Source: a virus | Strand: one strand, 5' to 3' | Length of the DNA stretch: 22,732 nt | IMG/VR virus record: IMGVR_UViG_3300043446_005406 | Span: 1 to 22,732 of that record | Part shown: positions 1,059-8,265 of the stretch, one piece after another | Position numbering within the stretch: position 1 is the stretch's first letter | Layout: every line of letters begins with the position of its first letter | The notes under the pieces: model-generated | Told to the model about the DNA's origin: nothing | The model's input: only the letters and a program-made list of their open reading frames with translations | Database searches by the model: none | Translations under genes and position numbers: made by a program

Positions 1059-1109
1059 GTGACCCTCACCCTCCTACTCGCCGGTAGCAAGAACGCCGAG
1101 GTACGGTAA
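1059..1109 (+). other. 16-codon mini-ORF resembling the start of the following gene
   Basis: A GTG-started frame, MTLTLLLAGSKNAEVR then TAA, lies between the fibre gene and the repeat protein, in the same frame as both. Its first residues resemble the start of the next protein (MTLLLLLTSSGGPK). No good Shine-Dalgarno sequence is visible. It may be a leader peptide, a decayed duplicate of the next gene's start, or chance. Confidence 0.2.
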
Positions 1110-1112
1110 CCA

Positions 1113-2057
1113 GTGACACTGCTGCTGCTTCTCACCAGCTCCGGCGGCCCCAAGTACGCCGACGCTGTAACTGTGTGCGTTGGTGACTTGACCGGCGCCG
1201 CCGAGTCACGGGCGTCACTAATTCCGTTTGGCGAGATCAACGTGTTTGCCGCTGGCGCTGTCGCGCCGGAGTCGCGTACCGCGGACCAGCCAACTGCGTC
1301 TGTTAGCGGCGTGGGTGATCTAACGGGCAACGGGTACCAGCAAAACCAGTACCCCAGTGCCGGTGTCCCGGGTGTTTCCGGCAGCAACGTTTTGCTGTAC
1401 CTGTCAACCGCGGTTGCAACGGCGCTGGTTCACGAAATCTCCAGCTTCAACTTCTTGCCGTTTGACAGCACCGTGGACTTCTCCGCCGCGTTCCCCGGTG
1501 TTGCAGCAGTTGACGGTGCTCCGTACGACAGCACTCAGCACACTAATGGCGTGGTTCCCGCGGTGTCCGCAGTTGTCGGCGTGGCGGAAGACCGGCTTGC
1601 GCTGCAGCCAAACGCAAACAGCACAGCAGTGTCTGGAACAAGTGCGGCACCGTACGACACCACCCAGCACACCAACGCAACAGTTCCCTCAATAAGCGGT
1701 TTTGCTGCAACTCCGTACGACACCACGCGTGAGGCAACAGCTGCCGCAAATGCAATCGGCGACTTTGCAGGTGTTGCAACCGACGTGGCAGCGCTTGTGC
1801 CCGCAGCAGTTGTTGTTGGAGTAAGCGCTGTTGGGATTGTTGTTCCGTCTCGCTCTTTTGCGGTAGTCGCAAACGCGGGCGGCGGGCGCGCTGGCGTTGG
1901 GGCGCTTACAGACGGCGGCGGGCGCGCTGGCGTTGGGGCGCTGACAGACGGCGGCGGGCGCGCTGGCGTTGGGGCGCTGACAGACGGCGGCGGGCGTGCT
2001 GGCGTTGGCTCACTGACAAGCGGCGGAGGCCGCAACACAACCGGAACGGTTACGTAA
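1113..2057 (+). CDS. Ala/Gly/Val-rich repeat protein, probable virion structural component
   Basis: A 314-residue protein of very biased composition (Ala, Val, Gly, Thr, Ser), not recognised as a known family. It begins with a Leu-rich stretch (MTLLLLLTSSGG), too short to call a signal peptide or membrane segment. VGDLTG occurs twice in the first ~75 residues. The motif PYD-[ST]-T-QHTN occurs twice and in a diverged form (PYDTTREAT) a third time. The C-terminus is a tandem array of a 12-residue unit GGGRAGVGALTD. The repeats and the position between a receptor-binding protein and the portal suggest a fibre, spike shaft or head/tail appendage; this is inference from context. The GTG start lies 3 bases after the stop of a mini-ORF in the same frame. 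TAA stop; the AAGGA overlapping that stop serves the portal gene. Confidence 0.65.
   Translation: MTLLLLLTSSGGPKYADAVTVCVGDLTGAAESRASLIPFGEINVFAAGAVAPESRTADQPTASVSGVGDLTGNGYQQNQYPSAGVPGVSGSNVLLYLSTAVATALVHEISSFNFLPFDSTVDFSAAFPGVAAVDGAPYDSTQHTNGVVPAVSAVVGVAEDRLALQPNANSTAVSGTSAAPYDTTQHTNATVPSISGFAATPYDTTREATAAANAIGDFAGVATDVAALVPAAVVVGVSAVGIVVPSRSFAVVANAGGGRAGVGALTDGGGRAGVGALTDGGGRAGVGALTDGGGRAGVGSLTSGGGRNTTGTVT
1518..1736 (+). repeat. Three protein-level PYDTTQHTN repeats
   Basis: Codons for APYDSTQHTN (1518-1547), APYDTTQHTN (1647-1676) and TPYDTTREA (1710-1736). Spacing is irregular (129 then 63 bases) and third codon positions differ, so this is an old, diverged internal repeat of the protein. 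Confidence 0.7.
1878..2033 (+). repeat. 36-bp in-frame tandem repeat (about 4.3 copies)
   Basis: Copies at 1878-1913, 1914-1949, 1950-1985 and 1986-2021, then a 12-base partial copy. Each encodes GGGRAGVGALTD. Copies 2 and 3 are identical; copy 1 differs at one base (CTT for CTG); copy 4 is diverged and reads GGGRAGVGSLTS. The near-identity of the DNA, not just the protein, suggests recent expansion by slippage or unequal recombination. The unit is a multiple of three, so copy number can change without breaking the frame. Confidence 0.92.
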
Positions 2058-2066
2058 GGAAACCTT

Positions 2067-4343
2067 TTGAGCACGGAGATTACCCCCGGGCAGGAAGCCC
2101 CAATTGGCCAGTACGCCGCGTTGTATCGCGGCGAGGCCAAGCGCAAGCAGTCACTTGGCGCCAAGCTCACTGAGCTGTACCAGAGCGGCAAGGAGATTCA
2201 GCGCCGCGAGCGTACGCGCTGGCAGCGCAACCGCCTGATGTACCGCGGTGAGCAGTATTTGCGCGTGGTGGGCAACAACGTGCGGACCCTGTCCCCCGTA
2301 GACCGGCTTCCTAGTGGCCGCCGCCGCGACACCGTGAACATGATGCGCCCGTTTATTGACGGACGCGTTGCCACGCTCACGTTCCAGCGTCCCCCGTTTA
2401 CGGTGATCCCAAACTCCAACGATCAGGAAACCGTGGACGCCGCGCGGCTGGCCACCCGGTTTGTGGAGTCGCAGTGGGGCACCGGTTGCTGGGAGCTTGA
2501 CCACGTATTCCGCCAGCTGTGCCTTACGGCGGAGATCGACGGAATCTCGTTCCTCAACGTGGTGTTTGACCGCTTCAAGGGCGGCCGCGTGGAGCTGTAC
2601 TTTGACGCCGCCGGGGAGCCAATCAACGACCCCACCCAGCTTGCGGCGCTTAAGTTGCAGGACCCGCTGGGGCAGGAGCTGTGGCGGCAGGTCACGAGCT
2701 ATCAGGGCGACATCGCCTTCCGCGTCGTAAGGCCGGGCGCGCTTTCGGTTGACCCTATTACGACGCGCTGGGAAGACTGCCGCTGGATCATCGAGTCCCG
2801 GGTGCAGCACCGCGACAGCGTCGAGCGCGAAGCCGGGCGTCCGGTGCAGGATATGCTCAAGCGTTCGCAGGAAACGCTTGGCGAGCGCAAGTTTGGGCTT
2901 GGCGAGACGGCGCAGCTTCCGGGCAACGTGCAGCTTGAGGAGGAAGACGGCGAGGTCCGCAACTTCTCCCACAAAGACGCGCTGCTGGTCCACGAAGCTT
3001 TTATCCTGCCGACTGGCCCCGCCGGTGACTTCCCCAAGGGGCTGCACTGCAAGTGGCTTGACGCCGCAGCCGGTGACCCGTACGTAGTGGAGCCGTGGGA
3101 CGAGGACGAGCTCCCCTACCGCCCGTACACTCCCAAGCCCGACGGCGGCCACTATATGCGCTGCCGCGGTACGGCGGACGAGCTGGCCCCGGTGCAGGTC
3201 CGTTGGAACCGTACGCTGTCCCAAGTAGGCGAGTGGCTTGACCGCGTGGCGCGGCCGCCGCTGGTGGTGGCTGCCGGTGCGCTGCGCAGCAAGTCGGTCT
3301 ACAACGAGGAAGGCGTGGTGCAGGTCCACGGCGGCTACCCGGAGCCGCGCTTTATGTCGACTCCGGCAGAGCCGTCGGCAGTGCTGAACAACCACCTTGA
3401 GTGGCTTAAGGGCACAATGGCCGAGATTGCCACGATGCACGACGCTTCGCGCGGTCAGGCGCCGGGTCGCGGTATCGAAGCTGCGGTGTCGCTTAACACG
3501 CTGATCCAGCAGAACGAGCAGAACCTCAGCGCCACAGCCGCGGAGTTTGTGAGCGTGATGGAGTGGGGTGTCTCGTGGGCGCTTAAGGAAGTGGGCAACC
3601 GGTTCCAGATGCCGCGAATGATCTCGCTGCCGGGTCTGGACGACTCGGGTGATTTGCTGGCGTTTATGGGCTCCCAGCTTCGCGGGAACAACCGCTTCAA
3701 GGTCACCGGGTCGATTACCCCCAAGATGCGGGCGGCCCAGCTGCAGACGGTAATGATGATGGCCCAGTACGGCGGTGTGGACATTAAGCCGTGGTCCACG
3801 CAGCTAATCGAAGGCAATATCGACGACATTCTTCGCCACGAGCGTTCGCAAGAACAGCGCCAGAAGCGGGAGACCGCGGCAATCCTTGCGCTCGGCGCCC
3901 GTCAGGACGCGGACCTTAAGTGGCGCGAGCTCAACAGCCTGATTACGCGCTTTGCCGAGGTGTCGTCTCAGTACGGGCCGGACGAGCTGCTGGCGCGCGG
4001 GATTCGCCCGCCGACGCTGGCAAACGTTGGGGTGGAGATCCCGATGCCCGAGTACTTTGACAAGGACCCCGAGCACATAATCGCAATGGAGCAGGTGTTG
4101 CTAAGCGAGGGGTACGATAAGCTCCACCCGCTCGTTAAGCAGGCGCTGCGCGAACACCACAACGCGCACCTGCAGCGAATTCAGCAGAACGCGCTGTCGG
4201 TTGCGGGGCAGATGCCCCCGACCGAGCAGCCCGGTCCCCCGCCCGCAGGCGCTGCTGACTCTGGGTCGGAAGACCCGTCGGTAAGCAGCGACGCCGCTGA
4301 CCAGCCACCGAAGAAGGAGTCAAGTGGCAACGAACAGCAGTAA
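2067..4343 (+). CDS. Portal protein (head-tail connector)
   Basis: 758 residues, in the size range of P22-type podovirus portals. The portal forms the ring at one capsid vertex through which DNA is packaged and ejected, and it nucleates procapsid assembly. The N-terminus is basic and helical (RRERTRWQRNRLMYRGEQ), followed by a clip/wing-like region with NMMRPFIDGRVATLTFQRPP and VVRPGALSVDP. The middle has helical segments including RWNRTLSQVGEWLDR. The C-terminus is a Gln-rich helix and an acidic, Pro-rich tail, probably disordered. Start: TTG at 2067, chosen because AAGGA at 2056-2060 is well placed and the first internal ATG is about 55 codons downstream. Its 3' end overlaps the next gene by 20 bases. 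The next genes (small acidic protein, scaffold, coat) give the usual head-gene order. The assignment rests on sequence character and gene order. Confidence 0.85.
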   Translation: MSTEITPGQEAPIGQYAALYRGEAKRKQSLGAKLTELYQSGKEIQRRERTRWQRNRLMYRGEQYLRVVGNNVRTLSPVDRLPSGRRRDTVNMMRPFIDGRVATLTFQRPPFTVIPNSNDQETVDAARLATRFVESQWGTGCWELDHVFRQLCLTAEIDGISFLNVVFDRFKGGRVELYFDAAGEPINDPTQLAALKLQDPLGQELWRQVTSYQGDIAFRVVRPGALSVDPITTRWEDCRWIIESRVQHRDSVEREAGRPVQDMLKRSQETLGERKFGLGETAQLPGNVQLEEEDGEVRNFSHKDALLVHEAFILPTGPAGDFPKGLHCKWLDAAAGDPYVVEPWDEDELPYRPYTPKPDGGHYMRCRGTADELAPVQVRWNRTLSQVGEWLDRVARPPLVVAAGALRSKSVYNEEGVVQVHGGYPEPRFMSTPAEPSAVLNNHLEWLKGTMAEIATMHDASRGQAPGRGIEAAVSLNTLIQQNEQNLSATAAEFVSVMEWGVSWALKEVGNRFQMPRMISLPGLDDSGDLLAFMGSQLRGNNRFKVTGSITPKMRAAQLQTVMMMAQYGGVDIKPWSTQLIEGNIDDILRHERSQEQRQKRETAAILALGARQDADLKWRELNSLITRFAEVSSQYGPDELLARGIRPPTLANVGVEIPMPEYFDKDPEHIIAMEQVLLSEGYDKLHPLVKQALREHHNAHLQRIQQNALSVAGQMPPTEQPGPPPAGAADSGSEDPSVSSDAADQPPKKESSGNEQQ

Positions 4344-6832: not shown

Positions 6833-7152
6833 TGGCCGTGACCACGTCGTACTCAACCCTCGGCGTGGACCGCGTGGCGTTCCTCGGTCGTGAGCGCGTG
6901 GTCCGTCGGCGAATTTCGCTGTCGGGCACGTACGCGACCGGTGGCTTCGCGATCACGCCTAACGAGCTGAACCTCAGCAAGATCCGCTGGGTCAAGTTCC
7001 ACGGGCCTGCGTCGACCGGCTCGGCCGTCGCTTTCCCGTACTGGGACGAGACGAACAGCAAGATCAAGCTGTTTACGGCGACCTCCACGGAGTTTTCCAA
7101 CGGTGGGTCGACTACCAACTACAAGCTGGACGTCGAGGTTGGCGGCCAGTAG
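6832..7152 (+). CDS. Small beta-rich protein, probable capsid decoration protein
   Basis: 106 residues, predicted all-beta from its alternating hydrophobic pattern. Visible segments: YSTLGVDRVAFLGRERVVRR, a TYATGG turn, LSKIRWVKFHGPAS, and a C-terminal strand YKLDVEVGGQ. Its ATG overlaps the last base of the coat stop (TAATG), so translation is almost certainly coupled to the coat gene and output should be high. A small beta protein directly after the coat gene is the usual setting for a decoration (capsid-cementing) protein. I recall similar small proteins next to podovirus-like coat genes but cannot name the family. Alternatives: head fibre or minor head protein. Confidence 0.7.
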   Translation: MAVTTSYSTLGVDRVAFLGRERVVRRRISLSGTYATGGFAITPNELNLSKIRWVKFHGPASTGSAVAFPYWDETNSKIKLFTATSTEFSNGGSTTNYKLDVEVGGQ

Positions 7153-7525
7153 GTACTCAAAGAACGGGGGGTCCGGGCGACCGGCCCCCCGTTCCGGTGC
7201 TCCCCGTCTTAAGGACCCCAAGGGGGGCCTGACGGCTGCTGGGCGCGCAGCGTTCAAGCGGTCGGAGGGCGCGAACCTCAAGCCGGGCGTGAAGAACTAC
7301 GAGTCCGCGTCGCTTGCGGACAAGAAGCGTTGGGTCAGTTGGGCAAGCCGGTTTTACGGTCGCTCAAAGATCCCGCCGCTGAAGAAGCCCAACGGCGAGC
7401 CGACGCGATACGCCCTTACGGCAAACGCGTGGGGCCAGCCGGTACCACAAAACGAGCAGCAGGTGCGACGCATTGCTGCTTTGGCGCAAAAGCGCAGTGC
7501 GCAGTTGCGCGGAAAGGCAGAATGA
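7139..7525 (+). CDS. Small basic protein with a KGGLTxAGRxxF motif
   Basis: 128 residues from a TTG at 7139 that overlaps the previous gene by 14 bases; an earlier GTG at 7103 in the same frame is possible, and no useful start exists between 7142 and the conserved region. The first ~25 residues are basic, Gly/Pro-rich and probably disordered; they lie over a strong hairpin (7162-7194). The core begins at KGGLTAAGRAAFKR, then LKPGV, then KKRWVSWASRFYGR and PTRYALTANAWGQPVP, and ends in a basic helix. KGGLTxAGR plus NLKPGV resembles a small phage-associated domain family (DUF6321-like, from memory and not verified). Function unknown; possibly a minor head component. The start codon is the weakest part of this call. 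Confidence 0.65.
   Translation: MAASRYSKNGGSGRPAPRSGAPRLKDPKGGLTAAGRAAFKRSEGANLKPGVKNYESASLADKKRWVSWASRFYGRSKIPPLKKPNGEPTRYALTANAWGQPVPQNEQQVRRIAALAQKRSAQLRGKAE
7162..7194 (+). promoter_or_regulatory. Very stable GC-rich hairpin with a GCGA tetraloop
   Basis: GAACGGGGGG (7162-7171) pairs perfectly with CCCCCCGTTC (7185-7194). Inside, after a bulged T at 7172, CCGG (7173-7176) pairs with CCGG (7181-7184) across a GCGA loop (7177-7180), a GNRA tetraloop. It begins 10 bases after the stop of the decoration gene. No T-run follows. It lies within the start region of the next gene, so it could attenuate transcription or translation downstream of the coat operon, or protect the 3' end of the coat message. 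Confidence 0.75.
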
Positions 7526-7716: not shown

Positions 7717-8265
7717 TTGCACGCTGAGCTTGCCGCAAAGCTCAAGGACGTTCTTGCCGACAGCGCGGTGCTGTGGTTTCGCGCGCATTCGGCTCACTGG
7801 AACGTAACCGGGCCGCATTTCCACGCCTACCACGAGTTGTTTGGTGAGGTGTACGAGGACGCGTGGGGCTCGCTGGACACGACCGCCGAGGCAATGCGCC
7901 AGATCGGCGTTTTTGCGCCGGTGTCGCTTTGCGGTCTAGTCGAGGGCGAGCCGGAGTTTTCCGAAACCGGTGACGCCGAGACGCTGGTGCGCGAGGTGCT
8001 GGACGCCAACGCCGCGGTTACCAAGTGCCTCTACGAGGCGTTTGCGGTGTGCAACCAGCCGGAGTGCAACGCGCAGGGCATTGCCAACTACGTTGCGGGC
8101 CGGATCGAGGCGCACGAAAAGTGGACGTGGCAGCTTGCTGCAACGCTCGGAGAGTCCGCGGACAAGGTTGTTCCGACCGATTCCGACGACGAGACAGAAC
8201 CCCCCCCGCCCAGCAACCCGCCGCCCAAGAAGCGCGGCGCCTACCCACCGGGGGTGAGCAAGTGA
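7717..8265 (+). CDS. Dps/ferritin-like protein with proline-rich C-terminal tail
   Basis: 182 residues. Residues 1-150 match the Dps family: the hallmark AHWNVTGPHFHAYHELF, then LDTTAEAMRQIG. Aligned without gaps to E. coli Dps, ferroxidase ligands His51, His63, Asp78 and Glu82 correspond to H27, H39, D54 and E58, but Asp67 falls on G43 (a Glu follows at 44). Dps proteins form 12-subunit cages that oxidise and store iron and protect DNA. Residues ~151-182 are an added acidic then Pro-rich and basic tail (EPPPPSNPPPKKRG), probably disordered. The start is TTG 7717, 3 bases after a TAG in the same frame, with weak Shine-Dalgarno support, so translation may depend on the upstream gene. It sits between head and tail genes. 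Possible roles are iron handling in the infected cell, packaging into the virion as cargo, or a purely structural use of the fold. Family call is firm; role is inference. Confidence 0.85.
   Translation: MHAELAAKLKDVLADSAVLWFRAHSAHWNVTGPHFHAYHELFGEVYEDAWGSLDTTAEAMRQIGVFAPVSLCGLVEGEPEFSETGDAETLVREVLDANAAVTKCLYEAFAVCNQPECNAQGIANYVAGRIEAHEKWTWQLAATLGESADKVVPTDSDDETEPPPPSNPPPKKRGAYPPGVSK

Follow-up and report, generated by a model that had tools for sequence, protein, structure and literature searches.

Does a nearly perfect tandem repeat at the end of a phage gene mark a protein that varies only in the length of its tail, or a gene that varies as a whole? The question is raised by a 36-bp array in an open reading frame (ORF) that occupies the place directly before a portal gene, here called the slot (Table 1). 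The window, by which is meant the whole stretch of DNA analysed, is the entire IMG/VR record of 22,732 bases and possibly a genome fragment. A sequence-only reading had assigned the array to a virion-module protein near a receptor-binding gene and had taken its three nearly identical copies for a recent, in-frame expansion that may vary in copy number. As judged by alignment with homologues on other contigs, the slot ORF is a member of a hypervariable family of virion-module proteins of which no earlier description was found.

Table 1. Features at the 5′ end of the window
Feature	Position	Strand	Basis or remark
Tail-fibre-like gene, truncated at contig start	3..1055	+	PHROG matches
16-codon stump MTLTLLLAGSKNAEVR, then stop	1059..1109	+	Likeness to start of extra L032 ORF MTVVLLLSGSKNASIV
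Slot gene, 314 aa, GTG start; MTLLLLLT N-terminus, variable middle, Gly/Arg tail	1113..2057	+	ORF list, family alignments
Older degenerate repeats in variable middle: APYDSTQHTNGVVP / APYDTTQHTNATVP / TPYDTTREATAAAN	1518..1729	+	Repeat families D7, D8
"Unit 0" with PxR motif, VPSRSFAVVANA	1842..1877	+	Sequence; Arg 12 residues ahead of first tail Arg
36-bp tandem array: four complete units, then 12 nt of a further one	1878..2033	+	TRF, unit comparison, shuffles
Last tail unit GGGRNTTGTVT	2022..2054	+	Homology to L013/L014 backbones resumes at 2028
Portal gene, directly downstream of slot gene	2067..4343	+	phrog_156, E 1.3e-11

The array and its reading frame

The array units encode GGGRAGVGALTD three times, then GGGRAGVGSLTS and then GGGR, at the C-terminal end of the slot protein. 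TRF gives a period of 36 with 4.3 copies and 91% matches; the copies start at 1878, 1914, 1950 and 1986, and a stub of 12 nt follows at 2022. There is no difference between copies 2 and 3; copy 1 is off by one silent base (CTT/CTG) and copy 4 by six bases. The claim of three near-identical copies is thus borne out, copies 1–3 differing by one base, and so is that of an in-frame repeat, since all copies are in frame with the slot ORF. At a lag of 36 the array matches itself at 101 of 108 bases, as compared with a maximum at this lag of 58 after shuffling the codons of the whole ORF (n = 2000) and of 65 after shuffling the tail codons only (n = 2000). Codon-position GC does not clearly separate the frames of the slot ORF, which is read as coding because its protein register is common to the relatives. 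A minus-strand ORF (1535–2191) across the array was taken as a shadow frame.

It should be kept in mind that the window is a metagenomic assembly and that an assembler can collapse or expand a near-perfect repeat of 156 bp, which makes the assembled copy number uncertain. The length of the array is close to that of a short read, as would suit a copy number that is an assembly artefact. Such an artefact is nevertheless highly improbable, for copy 1 has one base of its own and copy 4 differs at six, and relatives show the repeat at the protein level. Because copies 1 and 4 carry differences of their own, these two and at least one unit between them are probably real.

Genomic setting

With a fibre-like gene upstream and the portal gene downstream (PHROG), the slot lies, as claimed earlier, in a virion module; beyond the portal follow a capsid gene, an SU10-adaptor match, a collar-domain protein and lysis-type domains (Pfam/PHROG). 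That the upstream neighbour is a receptor-binding gene is plausible: a tail-fibre PHROG matches it with E 6e-5, more weakly than its best PHROG matches (best E 4e-9), which have no function assigned. Inside the same ORF a patch (444–607) encodes RPASPFxGQxIYETDT and is in DNA 81–91% identical (blastn) to the otherwise divergent fibre genes of the loci L012, L014, L032, L043 and L054; it resembles what a recombination anchor would look like.

A family reached through its neighbours

The window protein matched none of 50,697 phage records, and neither did the five relatives queried by tblastn (L014, L032, L054, L050 and L043). Viral-contig scans yielded 23 pattern matches for the window protein and 15 for that of L032, none of which was confirmed as a relative, and no viral contig contained a 35-base piece of the array, one position of which was left free. 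In Pfam, PHROG and profile searches the slot protein had no identifying family or structural match: for the window protein the best E was 0.29 (Pfam) and 0.023 (PHROG), and a profile search of solved structures returned a single match, to an antibody chain (E 0.4). Relatives were reached via the neighbouring portal and capsid genes and by a DNA pattern for the N-terminus.

Portal relatives were found at 13 loci (12 on viral contigs, one on a MAG contig). At eight of them (L010, L012, L013, L014, L015, L016, L017 and L032) the slot holds a family member, L010 and L014 being identical across the 9,672 nt compared. L021, on a contig shared with L003 and L011, has only 98 bp upstream of its portal; its final 28 codons are those of L014. 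In the two near-identical pairs L028/L030 and L029/L031, whose portals are 63–67% identical to that of the window (64–66% for L028 and L029), the slot is filled by a short ORF that starts with LTLALLY or VTFILW and is devoid of the 12-residue tail. A family profile built from eight positive sequences refound these eight and had no match in L028 and L029, the two of the four records that were searched.

The N-terminus pattern picked up 24 stretches, eight of them family members (three known, five new); the 16 others were rejected for a short frame or a dissimilar protein. A DNA pattern for the tail picked up three stretches, with no family member among them. The five new members lie on other backbones. 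The slot genes of L037, L041, L043 and L054 each stand directly ahead of a distant portal (that of L043 is 41% identical to the window's), and the L050 member, which consists of 431 residues, mostly in 14-residue repeats, has a different neighbourhood. The family analysed here comprises 13 distinct aligned members, namely the window and 12 homologues on other contigs (L010 merged with L014). In 12 of the 13 the gene is found directly before a portal gene and belongs to a variable fibre region, where it is at the 3′ end or close to it; the preceding gene is, by eye, of collar or fibre type in most members, and in several the start codon abuts the preceding stop codon.

As judged by portal and capsid, the phages closest to the window, at 20–24% identity, are Arthrobacter, Microbacterium and Cellulosimicrobium phages and one further record, so that the host is probably actinobacterial. 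In two of these phages, Brad and Shocker, the genes immediately 5′ of the portal are without the family signature. Publications on repeats and adhesins, as far as the matches listed and the portions of text they offer go, do not describe the family.

Signature and age of the 12-residue period

All 13 members start with M[T/S]L(L/I)L(L/F). Near the C-terminal end PxR is present in 11 of 13 (L017 has PR, L050 neither), and in all 12 members with this arginine the next tail arginine follows exactly 12 residues later. Further tail arginines are spaced by 12 residues, sometimes by 11 (L015, L017, L037 and L054) or 13 (L041 and L043). Glycine occupies position 8, i.e., four residues after the arginine on which the units are anchored, in 21 of 22 full tail units. 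These units come from all portal-linked members (eight with the window) except L016, which is too short to yield any. Beyond the Arg and a few Gly the units are poorly conserved, the mean identity between genomes being 48% for nucleotides and 40% for amino acids. In the window protein the family signature was found entire: an MTLLLLLT-like start, PxR, Arg after 12 residues and Gly four residues on.

Within genomes, the units of the window have an identity of 0.90 and those of L013 one of 0.86, and the average is 0.46–0.57 in L012, L014, L015, L017 and L032, with one L015 pair at 0.92; in L012, L013 and L017 the value is that of a single unit pair. In five of the seven genomes compared, window included, the units differ at about half of their bases. 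Because they are about half-diverged in most genomes while those of the window and of L013 are near-identical, the 12-residue period, dated in this way by unit divergence, is old and visible at the protein level, and the DNA array of the window is a recent re-expansion, in keeping with the recent expansion proposed earlier. The slot protein would be a repeat protein with two time scales, a long one for the protein period and a short one for the DNA arrays.

According to TRF, L013 has its own 36-bp array of 2.4 copies, L015 a 69-bp duplication in the tail and a 60-bp duplication in the middle, and L050 two short 42-bp arrays of about two copies each with 76–79% matches; at the thresholds used there was no such array in the other five relatives analysed in this way, L012, L014, L037, L041 and L054. 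Tandem duplications in frame are therefore seen in the tail of three members (window, L013 and L015) and, in L015, also in the middle, and their lengths of 36, 60 and 69 bp are each divisible by three. Slippage or unequal recombination is a natural route to 36-bp gains. The predicted variation in copy number exists among relatives, where the eight portal-linked members, window included, have one to five tail arginines; it does not extend to the near-identical pairs from different samples (L010/L014 and L041/L043), which do not differ in unit number.

Exchange of the gene between backbones

Seven relatives have portals 79–92% identical to that of the window and slot genes that are 24–59% identical to the window's; in four of these seven the capsids are 87–97% identical. 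The portal comparison with L013 covers 242 residues only, where the frame stops: at L013:6001–8262 the portal frame ends after about 242 codons, yet tblastn spans the whole protein, possibly as a result of an assembly frameshift.

Two pairs are a clean natural case of exchange in each direction. L015 and L016 have portals that are 99% identical, and slot genes of 242 and 74 residues that are 35% identical over 74 residues; homology is lost inside an upstream virion gene and regained at the slot-gene stop. L041 and L043, on the other hand, have slot genes that are 99% identical in nucleotides (7 differences in 534) and portals that are 77% identical in amino acids and 73% in nucleotides, the near-identical block starting about 26 nt before the start codon, in a stretch with two mismatches, and ending after about the first 40 nt of the portal gene. 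Because alleles differ on the same backbone in the first pair and match on different backbones in the second, the slot gene is, by these homology patterns, exchanged between backbones, and the hypervariable exchanged unit is the whole gene, beyond the array alone. When L041 (730–1263) is compared with L043 (4154–4687, reverse strand), six of the seven differences are seen to lie within 33 nt of one internal repeat, and three of these six bring the L043 copy nearer to the repeat that follows, a hint of conversion among the repeats.

Single-gene exchange as in L041/L043 and allele replacement as in L015/L016 would also be compatible with an exchangeable accessory (moron-like) gene, the product of which is located outside the virion and serves, e.g., superinfection exclusion or counter-defence, and the slot protein is indeed without a known domain. 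We consider this quite unlikely, because the gene occurs at one site of the virion operon in 12 of 13 members, with its start codon in several directly adjoining the stop of the gene before, and because it is built of repeats; none of these traits is known to be typical of moron-like genes.

Backbone homology is regained at or near the tail in five comparisons. Between the window and L013 or L014 it is back at 2028, inside the last tail unit, between the window and L012 at 1978 (three weaker patches precede it in the slot gene), between L014 and L013 about two units ahead of the slot-gene stop, and between L015 and L016 at the stop. The first and third of these breakpoints are what would be expected if the repeats served, as DNA, to provide a homology anchor by which the fibre cassette upstream is swapped, and if the tail of the protein were a by-product. 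This explanation is very unlikely in view of tail units that share only 48% of their nucleotides between genomes while Arg spacing and Gly 8 are kept, of the L041/L043 block, which ends inside the portal gene and not at the tail, and of L015/L016, where homology is back only at the stop.

The short frame between the fibre-like gene and the slot gene (Table 1) may tentatively be viewed as the remnant of another slot gene, either replaced or second, because its product is similar to the beginning of an extra ORF in L032 (L032:2523–2756, 77 residues), the two having in common G-S-K-N-A after a leucine-rich start. A stump or second slot ORF was not seen in the other 11 members.

Comparison with known systems

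The nearest analogue in working style is gp38 of T2-type phages. Two papers describe this adhesin (phages S16 and PP01) as hypervariable, fibre-partnered and, in the known case, determining host range, with glycine-rich repeated motifs (PMC12892980, PMC6851490); there are ten such motifs, more than half Gly, with long Gly runs and forming a PGII sandwich (PMC6851490). Also, gp38 sits at the tip of the fibre, binds the receptor and has three conserved Trp in its N-terminal helical attachment domain. The slot gene is likewise hypervariable and adjoins one or more fibre genes (neighbours assigned by PHROG in the window and by eye elsewhere). It differs in that the Gly runs in the window tail are not longer than three, that 24 of the 59 residues are Gly (41%) with an Arg in each unit, that the repeats are at the extreme C-terminus and that the window protein is without Trp. 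The Trp count is zero in 11 of the 12 members counted, window included, and one in L013; the 12 are all members but L050. Profile searches with the slot protein gave no match to gp38, and membership in gp38 was rejected on the basis of Trp and Gly.

The tail-associated BACON tandem repeats of crAss-like phages arise by duplication and horizontal transfer (PMC6949934). The evolutionary mode, in which repeats spread by duplication and transfer, is the same; however, BACON repeats are whole Ig-like domains, whereas the slot units are 12 residues long and have no domain match, and BACON (PF13004) was absent from the Pfam matches of the window protein up to an E of 1. The targets of diversity-generating retroelements are also hypervariable genes with presumed host contact. 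They differ from the slot gene, in which variation is by duplication and allele exchange across the whole gene. A retroelement was rejected, no reverse transcriptase (RVT_1) having been seen in nine records (the window and eight related ones), an absence that is incomplete because several are fragments. Collagen-like (G-X-Y) phage fibres share the glycine-rich repeats, but the 12-residue unit GGGRAGVGALTD, read directly, is without a G-X-Y triplet register. Near the slot of L013 there is a fibre-like gene (L013:4085–5311) with collagen-like GAQGATGAQG repeats and a glycine-rich domain.

A putative role in host recognition

How could such a protein function? In the mechanism that we propose, the N-terminus would anchor the slot protein, the variable middle would carry specificity and the GR tail would form an extended or fibrous, presumably exposed end. 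The length of the tail would change by replication slippage or unequal recombination with the frame left intact, the window array representing one recent lengthening, and the protein would be associated with a fibre and help to recognise the host surface. Whether the slot protein is, as we infer for its function, a hypervariable, exchanged, fibre-associated host-recognition protein with a tail that changes in length by in-frame duplication appears to us evenly poised. The N-terminus is conserved while the preceding gene varies among members, that of L037 not being fibre-like by eye, and for this reason a one-to-one fibre partner is not evident. Its constancy is suggestive of an anchor shared among the virions and not of one particular fibre partner. 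Further points count against host recognition: the protein is identified by neither a family nor a structural match, the AlphaFold models of it are uninformative, the tail units are poorly conserved apart from Arg and a few Gly, the slot ORFs of L028 and L029 have neither the 12-residue tail nor a match to the family profile, and in six members the tail spacing slips to 11 or 13.

Could the repeats be flexible filler without a role in host recognition, in a repeat-rich decoration protein of the head or neck that drifts neutrally? The position directly before the portal, the low-complexity sequence, in which Ala, Gly, Ser and Thr abound, and the two AlphaFold models, which are unstructured and at a mean pLDDT of 35.5 and 35.2 uninformative, are in line with this. 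We hold it to be unlikely because the R/G register is kept despite divergence of the DNA, and because whole-gene exchange and a location in the variable fibre region are more typical of genes for host contact.

To return to host recognition, it is possible, though we advance it only tentatively, that the 13 members represent a family, not described before, of host-recognition proteins that are each encoded by a single gene and are interchangeable, in phages whose hosts are probably actinobacteria. A conserved N-terminal anchor would enable alleles to be swapped as cassettes between divergent backbones, and the 12-residue Gly/Arg tail would grow and shrink in frame, without a retroelement. Host range would then evolve via exchange of whole alleles together with changes in repeat length. 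If this is right, a highly exchanged virion-module gene has been picked out in an uncultured phage group, and the signature of an MTLLLLLT-like start, PxR and a 12-residue GR tail would find a likely host-range gene that was missed by the family searches used here.

Other genes of the virion module

The virion module of the window also contains a gene for a ferritin-like protein (7717–8265; PF00210, E 3.3e-13), with the capsid gene on one side and tail genes on the other. Between the capsid gene and this gene a DUF6321 protein is encoded (7103–7525; PF19846, E 1.8e-23), to which no role is assigned. By eye the ferritin-like protein is Dps-like, and it has a C-terminal tail rich in proline and lysine.
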